A stretch of DNA of 7,987 bases from Alphaproteobacteria bacterium (GTDB lineage: Bacteria > Pseudomonadota > Alphaproteobacteria > UBA8366): NCBI GenBank assembly GCA_018665505.1, contig JABJCS010000455.1:1-7987 (forward strand), read 5' to 3'. A program made the position numbers and the translations under genes. Numbering within the stretch: the first letter of the stretch is position 1; every line of letters begins with the position of its first letter. Below are positions 1,410 to 7,804 of the stretch, in pieces. A model generated the notes under the pieces. It searched no databases. It saw only the letters and a list, made by a program, of their open reading frames with translations, and was not told the origin of the DNA.

Positions 1410-4400
1410 GTGGAAAAGGGACTTTACGGGTTTATTTGGAGCTATAGCAGGGGGTATCAGCTCGTCATCTTGTGTGTGACGATAGCGACTTTCCCACTTC
1501 TATACTACGCACTGGAATTGCCGAAGATCATAGTTAACGATGCTCTCGGCTCAAAGCCTGACGCCATTCCATTCCCGCGTACATATCTCGGTATTGAATT
1601 CGAACAAACCGAATATTTGCTGACGCTTTGTGGTATTTTTCTACTATTGCTTATCGTTAACGGCGGCATAATGATGGCCTTATTTATTTTTAAGGGCATT
1701 ACGTCGGAACGTTTACTGCGAAGGCTGCGTTTTATACTATTTGAACGTATCCATCGCTTCCCGCTCAAACAGTTCCAGAACACATCTCAAGGTGCAGTAA
1801 CCTCGATGATTACCGCCGAGGTCGAACCCTTCAGTCAATTCTTTGCAGATGCCGTAGAGTTACCGCTGTTCCAAGGCGGGACCATGTTGACGGTCTTAGT
1901 ATTTGTCTTCGTCCAAGACCCTATTATGGGGCTGGCGAGTATCTCCATCATTCCACTTCAAGCCTTTATTATCCCAAAACTGCAGAAAAAAGTTAACCTC
2001 CTGGCGAAGGAACGGGTCGTACGAATTCGCGGAGTTGCCGGTCGTATAAGCGAAGCTGTATCCGGCATTAACGAAATTCATACCCATGATACATCGGCAT
2101 TTTCACTGGCTGACTTTACTCACCACTTGTCCGGCGTTTTCAAGGTCCGGATGAAGATTTATCAGAACAAAGCGTTCTTAAAGTTTTTGAATAACTTTCT
2201 GCTAAAATTGACACCACTTCTATTCTATTCAGTCGGTGGACTACTTATCCTTGATGGCAAACTTGATTTGGGACAGTTGGTCGCAGTCCTCGGTGCTTAT
2301 AGCCAACTTATGTCGCCTTGGAAGGAATTACTAAAATACTACCAGCGCATGATGGACGCGAAAATAAAATTCGAGCAAGTAGCGGAGCAATTCAACCCGG
2401 CCGACATGATCCCAGAAAATCATCTCTTGACGGAACGCCCAGAAACCATTCCGGCACTTAATGGCGAAGTTTCACTTAGCAATGTTACCCTTACGGATGA
2501 AGACGGCGTTAAAACACTGGACTCTATTTCCTTCAATGCAGTGCCCGGCAGCAGAACTGCTCTAATAGCGGGTGGCAGCGGGCGGGACGATCTCGCGAAT
2601 CTTCTGACAGGGTTAATACAACCGAGCCGGGGACGCATCTCCATCGGACCGCATGCTCTTCCCTCCTTACATGAGTCTGTTGCGGGTCGACGGATCGGGT
2701 ATGCGGGACCGGATTCATACATCTTTGAGGGTACAATTGGATACAACACTTTTTACGGACTTAAACATCAACCCGTCGACATTCCGGAAGAAGATGCGCA
2801 ACGTGCAATCGATTTAAAGGACGCATTAGCAGCCGGTAATTCTTCCCACGATATTGAAGCAAATTGGATCGACTACACGGATACCGGCGTGAATAATCAC
2901 CAAGAACTATTAACTTGGTGGCATCAGACATTGGACGCGGTTGAACTCCAAAGTTTTATGTATGGCCGCGCCATGAATATGACGATTGACCCGAAAGACA
3001 AACCTGACCTAGCGAATAATATCGTTCTCGCCAGAGAGAGGGTGCTAGATCGTATTCGCTCAGATTCAGCTCTTGCTGACCTCATCCATCCCTTCGATTT
3101 TGAAGAGTACAATGTTAGCGCCACAGTTGGTGCGAACTTAATTTTCGGCGAAGCTACGAACAGTGATTTCGCCCTAGATAACCTGGGTCAGAATGCATTT
3201 GTACATTCGATTTTGGATGACTGTGATCTCACCAAAAAATTTCAGAACATTGGCCTTCAGGTTGCCGCGACCCTAATCGATATGTTTGACGGCATGTCTC
3301 CCGACGAACCAATATTTGAACAATACAGTTTTGTTGATGATGATTCACTCCAAGATTTAAAGCGAATTGTCGCGATTGCAAAACGTGAAGGCGCAGAAAC
3401 ATTGGTTGCTGAAGACAATGCTCAGGTGATTTCTCTAACCTTTCATCTAATCGTCGAACGCCACCGTCTCGGACATATTAATGAGGATGTGCAGGCAAGT
3501 ATCCTTGAAGCACGGTGTAAATTCCGTTTGCAATTGCCTGAAGAAAATAAAAACTCAATTTCTTTTTTTGATCCAAAGGAATTCAATTCAAAGCTTCCGC
3601 TGCGATCCAACTTGATCATGGGCAGAATTAATGCGGGACGCCCTCAGGCAGAAGAGAAAGTAGATCAAATTCTGCGCGAGGTATTAAATGAAATGAACCT
3701 GACCGCCGAAATAGTGCTCGCAGCAGCTGATTTCACAGTTGGTATTGGCGGACGCCGCATCCCATTAGCAGCGCGCCAATGCATCGCCTTGCTTAGAAGT
3801 ATCATTAAGAGACCTGATATATTAGTCATTAACGAAGCTCTTAATGCCCAAGATCGCGAAGCACGAGACCGTATCCGCCAAAATATTTTCGAACTTCTAC
3901 CCAACACGACAATTATTTGGATCGATAGTGAGATGCCTGAAGAGAATGCATTTGACCAAATATTAGTCATACGGAATGGGCGGATTGAGGAGCGGATATC
4001 GGATCAAGTAACGCCTGAAGTGGCAACGGTGACATCATCCGAACAGGAAATTGAAGATAGTAGTACTATCCTTAATGCAGAGACTTCCGCATTGGCTCAA
4101 GTCCCACTCTTCTCTGAGATGGATGCGTCTAAGTTGAAGCTGCTGGCATTTACAAGTGAACGTTTAACCTACACAAAAGGCGAAGACTTATTCCGTCAAG
4201 GTGATGCAGGCACTGCTGCATATGTAATCCTTGAAGGAGCGGTCGATATTGTGATTGGCGAGGGAGACGAAGAGCTAGTCGTCAATAACTTAAAACAGAA
4301 CGAGTTAGTTGGTGATATGGCATTGTTGAGCACAAAACCGCGCTCCGCAACAGTTAGGGCGGAGACCAATGTCATTGTCTTGGAATTGAAAAAGGAATTA

Positions 4401-4505
4401 TTTCTTGAGCTGCTTGAAGGCAGCCCTCATTTCTCCGCGCATATAGCTAGGATCATGAGCGATCGTCTTTACGACATGACCGCACAATTCCAAAACGCGG
4501 CATAA
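1410..4505 (+). CDS. ABC-exporter-like protein with degenerate, expanded nucleotide-binding domain and C-terminal cyclic-nucleotide-binding-like domain
   Basis: This gene encodes 1,031 residues from GTG 1410; TTG 1386 would add 8. The protein sits in the inner membrane: hydrophobic stretches at about residues 17-35, 69-94, 150-190 and 256-300 form a type I exporter membrane domain, and no N-terminal signal peptide is seen. The nucleotide-binding domain starts near 351. Its Walker A is shortened and reads GGSGRDD (388-394, Arg for Lys). Pro434 replaces the Q-loop Gln. Walker B reads ILVINE (804-809, Asn for Asp, Glu kept). The signature position reads IPLAARQ rather than LSGGQ, and an Asp (839) stands where the H-loop His is expected. 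About 280 extra residues lie between Q-loop and signature. Residues 897-1027 form a CRP-like sensor domain with a GDMAL...KPRSATV phosphate cassette (Asp969 for Glu, Arg978 kept). From memory, related large proteins occur in Rhodospirillales; substrate and activity are unknown. The gene is A+T-richer than its neighbours. Confidence 0.85.
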   Translation: MEKGLYGFIWSYSRGYQLVILCVTIATFPLLYYALELPKIIVNDALGSKPDAIPFPRTYLGIEFEQTEYLLTLCGIFLLLLIVNGGIMMALFIFKGITSERLLRRLRFILFERIHRFPLKQFQNTSQGAVTSMITAEVEPFSQFFADAVELPLFQGGTMLTVLVFVFVQDPIMGLASISIIPLQAFIIPKLQKKVNLLAKERVVRIRGVAGRISEAVSGINEIHTHDTSAFSLADFTHHLSGVFKVRMKIYQNKAFLKFLNNFLLKLTPLLFYSVGGLLILDGKLDLGQLVAVLGAYSQLMSPWKELLKYYQRMMDAKIKFEQVAEQFNPADMIPENHLLTERPETIPALNGEVSLSNVTLTDEDGVKTLDSISFNAVPGSRTALIAGGSGRDDLANLLTGLIQPSRGRISIGPHALPSLHESVAGRRIGYAGPDSYIFEGTIGYNTFYGLKHQPVDIPEEDAQRAIDLKDALAAGNSSHDIEANWIDYTDTGVNNHQELLTWWHQTLDAVELQSFMYGRAMNMTIDPKDKPDLANNIVLARERVLDRIRSDSALADLIHPFDFEEYNVSATVGANLIFGEATNSDFALDNLGQNAFVHSILDDCDLTKKFQNIGLQVAATLIDMFDGMSPDEPIFEQYSFVDDDSLQDLKRIVAIAKREGAETLVAEDNAQVISLTFHLIVERHRLGHINEDVQASILEARCKFRLQLPEENKNSISFFDPKEFNSKLPLRSNLIMGRINAGRPQAEEKVDQILREVLNEMNLTAEIVLAAADFTVGIGGRRIPLAARQCIALLRSIIKRPDILVINEALNAQDREARDRIRQNIFELLPNTTIIWIDSEMPEENAFDQILVIRNGRIEERISDQVTPEVATVTSSEQEIEDSSTILNAETSALAQVPLFSEMDASKLKLLAFTSERLTYTKGEDLFRQGDAGTAAYVILEGAVDIVIGEGDEELVVNNLKQNELVGDMALLSTKPRSATVRAETNVIVLELKKELFLELLEGSPHFSAHIARIMSDRLYDMTAQFQNAA

Positions 4506-4675
4506 GATAAGCCCAGCCAGCGCAACCACAAATCCACGACGGATGAGAAGTGCAGCCCGATTTAAGCAGGTTGGCTTTGAATTCACGCACTCGATTGGGC
4601 ACCCTGTAGCCAAACGGTAAGGCGGACATGGGTAGATCACTGATTTTTTTTTGCGTCGGCAGGACCCCATTTTTC
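4506..4675 (+). other. Short intergenic gap before the methyltransferase gene
   Basis: This gap is 170 bases, or 122 if the upstream ATG at 4628 is used. It holds a possible 6-bp stem (TTGGCT 4571-4576 with AGCCAA 4608-4613, loop of about 31 bases), a stretch resembling a tRNA D-arm (about 4606-4622), and a run of nine T at 4644-4652 with no stem directly before it. I see no convincing terminator or promoter, so readthrough from the ABC-like gene into the methyltransferase gene is possible. Confidence 0.4.
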
Positions 4676-5356
4676 ATGCTGAAAAAGGATCAATTTTATA
4701 AGGATCTCTTGGATGGGCTTTCACTTTTCTACGAAAGCCGCTTCATCACGGACATCCGAAACACGGCCTTAAAGTTTCCTGTCTCGGAACTCGGAAATGC
4801 CCTTAATCGACGGCAAACCGCGTCGAAGCTTTGGCTCTTGGACACCCTCTTCGATTGTCACGGCGCGGCATTGGGCAAAGTCCACATCCTTGGCGGTTGG
4901 TACGGTGTTCTCGCAGCGCTTTTCATTCACGATCCACGCTTCGAAATCGAACGGATCACGAGTTTCGATCTTGATCCCACATGCGCGCCCATTGCCAACA
5001 GCCTCAATGCCACCAATGTCGAACGCGGACTGTTCGAGCCAATCACCGCGGATATCCTCGACCTGCAATACGTGTCGGACGGCGTCCGAATTGACACCTT
5101 ATCGCTGAAGTTACCCGACATTCTCATCAATACCAGCTGCGAGCATTTGGATGATTTCGACGATTGGTTCGCCGCATTGCCGAACGACACCCTACTGGTT
5201 CTGCAGTCGAACGACTATTTCTCCGAACCCGAGCACGTCAACAGTGTCCCCGACCTTGCGGCCTTCAAGCGCCAAGCGCCACTCTCGACCACATTGTTCG
5301 AGGGCGCGCTGGAATTCGACAAATACACGCGGTTCATGCTCATCGGGCGTAAATAG
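4676..5356 (+). CDS. Class I SAM-dependent methyltransferase
   Basis: This gene encodes a 226-residue soluble protein with the Rossmann-type methyltransferase pattern. Motif I is VHILGGWYGVLA (about residues 69-80). The acidic end of strand 2 is TSFDLDP (95-101), with an Asp expected to hold the SAM ribose. An ADILDLQY segment (125-132) follows, and strand 4 is PDILINTSCEHL (147-158). The family transfers a methyl group from SAM; the substrate cannot be read from the sequence. I prefer the ATG at 4676 (AGGA 11 bases upstream) because the protein then starts MLKKDQFYKDLLDGL, whereas the ATG at 4628 (AAGG 5 bases upstream) adds 16 hydrophobic residues partly encoded by a T-run. The first ~100 bases are A+T-rich and the rest G+C-rich. 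It follows the ABC-like gene on the same strand and converges on the glycosyltransferase operon, so methylation of a glycan or sugar precursor is possible but unproven. Confidence 0.82.
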   Translation: MLKKDQFYKDLLDGLSLFYESRFITDIRNTALKFPVSELGNALNRRQTASKLWLLDTLFDCHGAALGKVHILGGWYGVLAALFIHDPRFEIERITSFDLDPTCAPIANSLNATNVERGLFEPITADILDLQYVSDGVRIDTLSLKLPDILINTSCEHLDDFDDWFAALPNDTLLVLQSNDYFSEPEHVNSVPDLAAFKRQAPLSTTLFEGALEFDKYTRFMLIGRK

Positions 5357-5364
5357 CGCGCTAT
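5353..5364. repeat. 12-bp perfect palindrome across the convergent stop codons
   Basis: ATAGCGCGCTAT reads the same on both strands. It contains the methyltransferase TAG (5354-5356) and reaches the first base of the glycosyltransferase stop triplet (5364-5366). It has no loop and no T-run, so it is not a typical intrinsic terminator. Confidence 0.5.
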
Positions 5365-6518
5365 CAATCGCGGCGCTCCAATGCTCGGCGCAAAATGGCG
5401 ACGGTATTTGTCGCCCCGTCCATATCCAGCACAAATTCAGTCGACGGCGTCCTGATGGCCACTCGATCGATGGCATCGGCCAGGCGCTGTGGCGTCAGAT
5501 GGGACGATGCAATCGTTTCAGCCCGCCCCGCTTGCGCTAATTTTTGCGCGCGGCGAGGCTGTTCATCTTCGCCATCCGTATCAAAGGGCACCAGAACCGC
5601 GGGCGTATTAGTCGACAAAATATCGGCCACCGTATTGTACCCCGCCTGCGAGACGGATACGGCGGCACCCGCCAATAGCGTGCGAAAATCGATCCGATAT
5701 CGCTCCACCGTGACGCCATCCGAGGCCTGCTCGGACAGCGCGCTGAAAATGGCCTCCGCCACATTCGGTCCGACGAGCAATCGCCACTGCAAACCTGCTA
5801 GGCGGCTCAGAGGCCGTGCCGCAATTGCCGTCTTGAAGAGGTCGATGCCGACGGCACCTCCTCCGGCCGAGATTAACACCTCCGCTTCGCCGGCGGGCAG
5901 CTGAATCCCGGAGCCTTCGGCGACAACCCCCGTATATCGGAGTTTCGGCGCAAAGGCGCCCGCTTCCGGAAAAGTTTCCTCCAACCGCGCGAAGGATGCG
6001 TCGCCGTGCACAAGCACCAAATCGTAGTAGTCCGCAATGAGTGCCCGGGTTTCTTCGGCTCTCCCCGGTTTTCGACTAGATTTAAGGATGTCCCGTACGG
6101 AACAAATGATTAGCGGTCGTGGGATAGCACTCTTCGCGCTTTCTAATATCGGTATCAGCTCGAATCGCATTTGCCGGCGCCCGAATGGAAAAGCTTCCGT
6201 GATCAGAATGTCGGGCGACCGTTCCGCGATGGCATCGCGTAGCAAGTCTCGGCGGTTGTCTTTCCACACCGCGTCGACCGGCACGTCGTTAACGTCGACC
6301 AGATCGTGGAAACCATCGGCACCGATATGAAGCGGCGGTAGGGCCAATAGCTCTGCGCCACCGATATCCATACCACCGACGGGCCGCCCACCCATCGCCA
6401 ATGTCACATCAAATCCATCCTCCGACAGAGCGCGGCATAAAATCGCCGCTCGGCGCAAATGGCCAATACCCAAAAGATGCTGCACGTAAAAGAAAACGCG
6501 GGAGTTGCGTGAGGTCAC
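5364..6518 (-). CDS. MurG-like GT-B glycosyltransferase (COG4671-like)
   Basis: This gene encodes a 384-residue cytoplasmic or membrane-peripheral protein of two Rossmann halves. The N-terminal half begins VFFYVQHLLGIGHLRRA (about residues 8-24), with the glycine-rich loop seen in MurG/GT28-type enzymes that bind the acceptor. The C-terminal half has ISAGGGAVG (216-224), SQAGYNTVADIL (289-300) and PFDTDGEDEQPRRAQKL (311-327), the usual nucleotide-sugar binding pattern of this class. This fits the predicted glycosyltransferases of COG4671; donor and acceptor sugars are unknown. The start is GTG 6518: a stop lies five codons upstream in frame, and AGGAG at 6531-6535 precedes it by 12 bases, a long spacing. 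It lies 26 bases downstream of the GT4 gene and is probably in the same operon. Confidence 0.85.
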   Translation of the reverse strand: MTSRNSRVFFYVQHLLGIGHLRRAAILCRALSEDGFDVTLAMGGRPVGGMDIGGAELLALPPLHIGADGFHDLVDVNDVPVDAVWKDNRRDLLRDAIAERSPDILITEAFPFGRRQMRFELIPILESAKSAIPRPLIICSVRDILKSSRKPGRAEETRALIADYYDLVLVHGDASFARLEETFPEAGAFAPKLRYTGVVAEGSGIQLPAGEAEVLISAGGGAVGIDLFKTAIAARPLSRLAGLQWRLLVGPNVAEAIFSALSEQASDGVTVERYRIDFRTLLAGAAVSVSQAGYNTVADILSTNTPAVLVPFDTDGEDEQPRRAQKLAQAGRAETIASSHLTPQRLADAIDRVAIRTPSTEFVLDMDGATNTVAILRRALERRD

Positions 6519-6544: not shown

Positions 6545-7804
6545 TCAAGCGCTCTCCCGAAGGGAGGCCGTGCGCTCCTTGGATAGCCCAAATTTACCGG
6601 CAATCCGCTCAGCTCCCGCTTCATGAGAGAACTCGTCCCGGACCCGATTGAAACCGGCTTGGCCTAAACGATGACGGAGTGGCGGATCAGTAATCAATGC
6701 CTCCAACGCCCCGGCCAGAGCGGTTTCATCTTCTTGCGGGACAAGCAAACCTGTCTCTCCATCCAGGATCAATTCAGGGATGGCCGAGACACGGGTCGAC
6801 ACACACGGCAGGCCTTGGCTTTGGGCTTCGAGCAAGACGTTCGGCAGTCCGTCACGGTCTCCATTTTCCGCGATGCGGCTCGCCAGAACAAAAATATCGG
6901 CGTCCCGACACGCGGACAGCACGGCTGTCTGCGCCTGTGCTCCGTGCCAGACGACCTTGTCGTCTATACCCAATTTCTTCGCTTGTTCCTGCAATGCATC
7001 CAGGACCATACCGCCGCCGATATGCTCGAAACGCCAATGCAGTTCTTTCGGCAGGTGGCTCAAAGCCCGCAACAACACGTCGTAGCCCTTTTTCGGCACG
7101 GCCCGTCCGACAGACAAGATCGTCAGCGGATCGGCTGCGTTACTACCGTCCTTACGAGTCGCGGGGCGTTCCAATTCCGCGAAACGGTCGAAATCAAGTC
7201 CGTGATAAACCAGCTCAACTCGGTCCTTCTCGGGTGCCAGGGCTGCTAAATGCGCGCGCCCGACTTCGGTACACGTGACCAGCCAGTCCATCTCTCCAAG
7301 CTTCTCCGCCTTCTCCCAGTCCGGTGTGGTCCAAATATCTTTGGCATGTGCCGAACAGCTCCAGCTCAATCCGCTAAGGAGCGACGCATAACGTGTGACC
7401 GATGCCGGCGTGTGAAGAAAGTGCGCGTGTAGATGTCTGCAGCCCTCTTCAAGCTCATCCACCAGAACGATCGCTTGGCCGAAGTGTCGCAATCGGTTGC
7501 GGAACGGGCCGCGCTTGAAATCACGCCACCAAGTGGCCATCGCCTTGCGGAAATTCGGATGCTTACGCTGGCGCAGCCACGCTCGAAAAACCCGCAACGG
7601 TTCATGATGCAGATATTCCGGCGAGTACCGCACCGGTGCCGTGATCTCGTTGTGAATAGGGTGCCGCTCCTTATCCGTCGGATGCCGGAGAGAAACTATG
7701 TTAATAGGAACGCCGCGGCTCTCGAGCGCCGCGATTTCCTGCGCGATAAAGGTTTCCGAAAGCCGCGGATAGCCCTTGAGCACGAAGACAATCGTATCCG
7801 TCAC
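6545..7804 (-). CDS. GT4 family glycosyltransferase (WcaL/exopolysaccharide type)
   Basis: This gene encodes a 419-residue retaining GT-B glycosyltransferase. It opens IVFVLKGYPRLSETFIAQEI (about residues 5-24), typical of GT4 enzymes of colanic acid and exopolysaccharide synthesis. Further landmarks are HAHF (126-129), SAHAKDIW (151-158), YHGLD (200-204), SVGRAVPKKGYDVLL (231-245) with the Arg and Lys that contact donor phosphates, HIGGG (261-265), and DGLPNVLLEAQSQGLPCVS (318-336). The last is the E-x7-E region with Asp318 in place of the first Glu and Glu326 kept. There is no signal peptide or membrane segment. It probably adds a sugar from a nucleotide donor to a lipid-linked or surface glycan. 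The start is GTG 7804, preceded by a GGCAGGGG stretch; the previous gene stops 9 bases upstream, so translational coupling is likely. Stop is TGA at 6545-6547. Confidence 0.9.
   Translation of the reverse strand: MTDTIVFVLKGYPRLSETFIAQEIAALESRGVPINIVSLRHPTDKERHPIHNEITAPVRYSPEYLHHEPLRVFRAWLRQRKHPNFRKAMATWWRDFKRGPFRNRLRHFGQAIVLVDELEEGCRHLHAHFLHTPASVTRYASLLSGLSWSCSAHAKDIWTTPDWEKAEKLGEMDWLVTCTEVGRAHLAALAPEKDRVELVYHGLDFDRFAELERPATRKDGSNAADPLTILSVGRAVPKKGYDVLLRALSHLPKELHWRFEHIGGGMVLDALQEQAKKLGIDDKVVWHGAQAQTAVLSACRDADIFVLASRIAENGDRDGLPNVLLEAQSQGLPCVSTRVSAIPELILDGETGLLVPQEDETALAGALEALITDPPLRHRLGQAGFNRVRDEFSHEAGAERIAGKFGLSKERTASLRESA

Follow-up and report, generated by a model that had tools for sequence, protein, structure and literature searches.

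An ABC-exporter-fold protein family with a degenerate ATP site and a linked cyclic-nucleotide-binding module

Introduction

What does a membrane protein of the ABC-exporter fold do once its nucleotide-binding domain (NBD) has lost nearly all of its catalytic motifs? The question is raised by a gene in a 7,987-nucleotide stretch of DNA from an alphaproteobacterium, called here the window, and is taken up below from the motifs of the protein itself, its relatives and its gene neighbourhood.

Results and Discussion

Domain layout of the window protein

The pseudo-ABC gene probably starts at GTG 1410, and its reading frame is already open upstream, from TTG 1386; residue numbers of the window protein follow a 1039-aa numbering. 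Only three Pfam families are found in it, PF00664, PF00005 and PF00027, and the succession of a PF00664 transmembrane domain (TMD) and an ABC NBD identifies an ABC exporter fold (type IV). The features of the gene are as follows.

1410..4505, + strand: pseudo-ABC gene, encoding 1031 aa
1422..2390, + strand: TMD of ABC-exporter type (PF00664, Pfam match 8.5e-23)
2451..2768, + strand: first part of the NBD (PF00005, 25.3 bits against a cut-off of 25)
2496..2498, + strand: A-loop position, Asp371 replacing the aromatic residue
2568..2594, + strand: Walker A equivalent AGGSGRDDL, one residue short
2685..2762, + strand: Q-loop module, copy 1, with Pro442 replacing Gln
2769..3590, + strand: insert of about 270 aa, mainly helical, between Q-loop and signature
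3081..3155, + strand: Q-loop module, copy 2, within the insert
3555..3629, + strand: Q-loop module, copy 3, running into the second NBD part
3591..3995, + strand: second part of the NBD
3759..3779, + strand: signature equivalent IPLAARQ
3819..3836, + strand: Walker B equivalent ILVINE (Asn816-Glu817)
3927..3929, + strand: H-loop position, Ser848
4059..4502, + strand: cyclic-nucleotide-binding (cNMP) domain (PF00027, Pfam 7.9e-21), its conserved phosphate-binding cassette at residues 976-992

The protein shares the TMD-NBD half-transporter layout and the fold of the MsbA-type homodimeric exporters (TIGR02203), which give the best NCBIfam match, but unlike these it carries a probably dead ATP site, the 270-aa insert and the cNMP module. 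Identity as an MsbA lipid A exporter was rejected, the match reaching 151.5 bits against an equivalog cut-off of 602. No C39 peptidase domain was detected in the window protein by Pfam, which sets it apart from HetC-type peptidase exporters.

Loss of the ATP site

One of eight canonical NBD features is retained in the window protein, the Walker B Glu (Glu817). The changes in Walker A, Q-loop, signature, Walker B and H-loop to which a sequence-only reading had drawn attention are all present, and they are joined by a sixth, since the A-loop aromatic residue that stacks on adenine is also gone. The combination that marks an active ABC ATPase (Walker A Lys-Ser/Thr, Walker B Asp-Glu, LSGGQ, the Q-loop Gln, the H-loop His and an A-loop aromatic residue) is not found in this protein.

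Family relatives were taken as proteins that share the insert of about 270 aa in the NBD. Of the 386 homologues found, 120 were listed, and 119 of these (all but P0029) were aligned with the query; the motif losses are common to this alignment and to a second homologue set. Counts refer either to 232 proteins, those longer than 820 aa among 241, or to 333 rows, made up of the same 232 proteins and 101 of 102 unique frames from the fetched loci, one frame having been dropped for a missing residue at a motif column. The rows are not independent, as many are close relatives, and 323 of the 333 are distinct over the NBD and insert.

Among the 232 proteins the P-loop residue is basic in 228 and is followed by an acid in 217, the Walker B Asp occurs in one, and an LSGGQ-like signature occurs in none. 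Across the 333 rows the P-loop Lys is found in 119, Ser/Thr after it in 14, the Q-loop Gln in 86, the Walker B Asp in 15, the Walker B Glu in 181 and the H-loop His in 84. SGGQ is absent from all 333, three of which have GGQ without the Ser at the signature position. The A-loop column contains Tyr, Phe or Trp in 0/333 rows and an acid in 319/333, and two rows carry His. When the eight canonical features are scored together, 69 rows keep none, 122 keep one, 70 two, 50 three, 21 four and a single row five. Scores of 6 or 7 are reached by the 21 NBD-like frames that lack the insert, which were collected from every fetched locus, control regions among them. Many of these frames resemble importer ATPases with an A-loop that is unaligned here, so that a score of 8 is not to be expected. 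The row closest to canonical among the 333, that of L118 in genome G250, retains Lys-Thr, Asp-Glu and the H-loop His. This protein is 60% identical to a degenerate member, a relation that could reflect either parallel loss or partial retention.

The proposal of a pseudo-ATPase is thus well supported at the level of sequence, and family-wide, and the ATPase of the family is very probably dead. Weak nucleotide binding is possible because the P-loop Arg/Lys (228/232) and the Walker B Glu (181/333) are often retained. The further suggestion that part of the loss is specific to this lineage proved mostly wrong, the core losses being shared by the whole family, and holds just for the final steps. 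All 12 rows of the clade of the window protein have lost the signature Gln, and the P-loop is one residue shorter in 13 of 37 representatives, among them the window protein.

Selection, conservation and distribution

Comparison of S. meliloti with S. medicae gave dN/dS values of 0.038 for the whole gene, 0.030 for the TMD, 0.036 for the insert, and 0.041 and 0.049 for the two NBD parts; the value for the neighbouring cNMP gene is 0.054. The pseudo-ABC gene and its NBD are under strong purifying selection. That the protein is maintained, as had been supposed from the intact frame, is confirmed by the open frame in combination with this selection (dN/dS 0.04 for the Sinorhizobium orthologues). 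The TMD is the most conserved part, with a column entropy of 1.34 versus 1.90-2.02 elsewhere in 37 representatives, and by the same measure the insert is not conserved above the level of the NBD.

A family member was found in 97 of 289 sampled genomes (E 1e-90 or better) from the class of G002, the Rhodospirillaceae MAG that is the source of L002, and the insert was detected in 31 of 398 genomes of a phylum-wide draw. Named records with family members include Rhizobium, Sinorhizobium and Azospirillum plasmids, and among the matches listed at least two are named Sedimenticolaceae. The family is widespread, without a name of its own. G002 contains two paralogues, L002 and L041, with the cNMP domain fused in one and separate in the other.

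The insert and its repeated Q-loop modules

Profile comparison of the parts of the insert revealed that the Q-loop module, which consists of a strand, the Q-loop and a helix with TIxxNxxYG, recurs within it. Copies 2 and 3 match each other with an E-value of 1.9e-11 and a probability of 97.3 (a single-pair E-value, obtained without control segments), and copy 1 matches copies 2 and 3 with single-pair E-values of 6e-5 and 9e-5 and probabilities of 64 and 59, respectively. The Q-loop is the meeting point of NBD and TMD (PMC7756269, in part), and for this reason its repetition may have enlarged the coupling surface. A model of the insert by itself is largely helical (pLDDT 86.5), and no clear fold match for it was found in the PDB.

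The cyclic-nucleotide-binding module

Gene contexts were compared over 64 loci, namely the window, L001-L003 and one locus apiece from 60 of the 97 genomes with a member. The 60 genomes were chosen for flank length, L002 and L041 share one genome, and some contexts end at contig ends; 20 regions picked arbitrarily from these genomes served as controls. A cNMP partner accompanies the pseudo-ABC protein in 62 of the 64 loci, fused to it in nine and encoded by a separate same-strand downstream gene in 53, while two loci have none. A cNMP match occurs anywhere in one of the 20 control regions.

The PF00027 domain of the window protein contains both the acid and the Arg of the cassette, as Asp977 and Arg986. 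In fused members (n = 114) Gly976 is present in 114, Glu/Asp977 in 110 and Arg986 in 91. The stand-alone partner of L055 (Sneathiella) consists of the domain alone (156 aa); its best matches are PKG/PKA regulatory domains (8.9e-27), with SthK at 1e-12, and Pfam finds no DNA-binding domain in it. Judged by its domain make-up, the stand-alone partner is not a transcription factor. Database records often label family proteins as ABC transporter ATP-binding proteins, and some label the cNMP partner as a Crp/Fnr transcription regulator; these labels are misleading. The S. meliloti partner (L063:12830-13294) is one that bears the Crp/Fnr label.

The earlier idea that the ABC fold serves here in gating or sensing is favoured by the kept cyclic-nucleotide pocket and by the fusion or gene linkage of the cNMP module; gating as such we infer from these features. 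In four relatives (P0085, P0099, P0100 and P0105) a GGDEF domain lies C-terminal to the cNMP domain, and a fifth, P0115, falls narrowly under the cut-off. The GGDEF catalytic motif appears by eye to be degraded in P0085 and P0100, the two sequences that were read.

Linkage to glycan genes

The pseudo-ABC gene of the window is flanked by the following features.

1-738: end of an indolepyruvate ferredoxin oxidoreductase (DUF6537), upstream
747-1118: GYD-domain protein, upstream
4628..5356, + strand: downstream ORF, methyltransferase-like by eye, common to L001-L003; no Pfam family at cut-off
5364..6518, - strand: glycosyltransferase, Glyco_tran_28_C, conserved neighbour (Pfam)
6545..7804, - strand: glycosyltransferase, GT4, EpsE-like, conserved neighbour (Pfam, NCBIfam)

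A GT4 glycosyltransferase lies within 6 kb in 46 of the 64 loci, a GT28-type enzyme in 47 and either of them in 47, against 0/20 control regions for GT4 and 0/20 for GT28. The 17 loci without such a neighbour include five of the nine fused forms, and the four fused forms that have one are the window and L001-L003. A histidine phosphatase gene lies at the same range in 37 of the 64 loci. In the S. meliloti and Azospirillum loci an annotated SAM methyltransferase adjoins the pseudo-ABC gene, and a four-gene ABC importer, of peptide type in Azospirillum, also neighbours the rhizobial and Azospirillum loci that were read. Two linked genes of the glycan operon at L055 (763-1278 and 1337-2146) have no Pfam match and are conserved in several loci.

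Proposed mechanism and alternatives

The reading that best fits the sequence evidence, held at about even odds, is that the family is a conserved pseudo-ATPase of the ABC-exporter fold that is switched by a cyclic nucleotide, without ATP hydrolysis, and handles or controls a surface glycan. In such a mechanism the protein would act as a dimer, and cyclic nucleotide would bind to the cNMP domain and replace ATP as the switch. The NBD would have become a transmission element, the signal passing through it and the insert to the coupling helices and flipping the TMD between conformations. A glycan or lipid carrier would then be passed, as by a gated facilitator or flippase, or glycan synthesis would be controlled, in either case without hydrolysis of ATP. 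A more specific version, put forward tentatively, is a cyclic-nucleotide-gated ABC protein whose NBD, made larger by the repeated Q-loop modules, forms a clutch between the second-messenger sensor and a transmembrane pathway along which the glycan is passed or controlled without ATP.

The alternative that survives best dispenses with transport. As a sensor or scaffold, the protein would use its TMD to detect a lipid-linked sugar or the membrane itself, and its cytoplasmic part to control the linked glycosyltransferases. The glycosyltransferase linkage in 47 of the 64 loci is in keeping with this, as is the C-terminal GGDEF-like signalling domain of a few relatives, and nothing speaks clearly against it; the conservation peak in the TMD fits a pathway, but it would fit a sensor too. 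We regard this alternative as rather doubtful, and it is hardly separable from the favoured gated reading.

Degenerate sites are common among exporters (PMC7756269, in part), and the window protein could be the half of a heterodimeric exporter that is catalytically silent, like TAP1 or TM287, with ATP hydrolysed by a canonical half-transporter encoded elsewhere. TM287/288, TmrAB, TAP and ABCG5/G8 likewise have altered Walker, signature and H-loop residues, and ABCG5/G8 also carries an Arg in place of the Walker A Lys (PMC7756269, in part). These degenerate-site exporters retain one canonical site per dimer (PMC7756269, in part), whereas in the window subunit the motifs of both composite sites are altered. 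A silent half should lend a usable signature to the site of its partner, yet the window protein has IPLAA at this position and SGGQ occurs in 0/333 rows. An exporter-like canonical ORF adjoins one of the 64 loci, according to a motif search that may overlook variants. This is the divergent locus L059, where a canonical ABC exporter of 576 aa and an HlyD protein are encoded just upstream. A looser scan gave 5/64 loci, the other four being similar frames of 803-840 aa with GTTGSGKSV, which we take to be FtsK. The lost signature and the lack of a partner gene in the other loci count against the silent-half explanation, which is unlikely, and the separate active partner considered in the sequence-only reading finds no support in the motif counts or in the 64 gene contexts. 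The exporter and HlyD-type pairing beside the divergent member (L059:3276-6313) is the sole case in the 64 loci.

A further alternative is an unusual ATPase whose metal site has been rebuilt. Its acidic Mg ligand would have left Walker B, where Asp became Asn/Ser, and taken up the position following the P-loop Lys/Arg, where Ser/Thr became Asp/Glu. An acid is found at position 401 in 217 and Asp816 in one of the 232 proteins, and Asp816 occurs in 6 of 14 rows with Ser/Thr401 versus 9 of 319 without (Fisher p 7e-6). The association thins to 3/9 versus 8/81 (p 0.08) among 90 representatives of less than 60% identity, which weakens this explanation, and the A-loop and signature are lost as well; we consider it very improbable. 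Decay of an exporter towards a pseudogene would account for the loss of most motifs from the window protein, but it is contradicted by the open frame, the dN/dS of 0.04 in Sinorhizobium and the presence of members in 97 of 289 genomes, and is scarcely credible.

If the cyclic-nucleotide-switched reading is true, a common and strongly conserved exporter family without a working site would separate, in a testable way, the mechanical role of the ABC fold from ATP hydrolysis, and the family would form an ABC branch driven by signal, not fuel. It would also provide a direct link from cyclic nucleotide to envelope glycan in bacteria including Rhizobium, Sinorhizobium and Azospirillum.

Related systems and nomenclature

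The cyclic-nucleotide-gated channels SthK and HCN likewise consist of a membrane part followed by a cyclic-nucleotide domain, but their membrane part is a cation channel, whereas that of the pseudo-ABC family is an ABC exporter TMD. HetC of Nostoc likewise joins a cNMP domain, which it needs for function, to an ABC exporter; it differs in the N-terminal position of the cNMP domain, in its peptidase domain and in having an essential catalytic ATPase residue (PMC10986499, in part). Degenerate sites and the fusion of a cNMP domain to an exporter (HetC) are thus already known, both with a working ATPase. The combination of pseudo-ABC protein and cNMP module has no recognisable description in the open-licence literature searched (titles and the beginnings of abstracts).

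S. meliloti msbA2 was considered as the named relative and rejected on its map position, the msbA2 operon lying at about 938 kb of pSymB (PMC3687685, in part) and the family gene at 842 kb. MsbA2 is likewise MsbA-like and encoded in an operon with glycosyltransferases (PMC3687685, in part). The accessible portions of PMC6180224 and PMC12239276 contain nothing on the S. meliloti family gene. This gene may be SMb20813, since interpolation of the gene numbers in a table of PMC3687685 (in part) places SMb20813 at about the 842-kb position. SMb20813 has been termed the msbA homologue in one paper (PMC10945364, in part). The genes smb20804 and smb20805 have been linked to capsule and peptide sensitivity (PMC5539429, in part).
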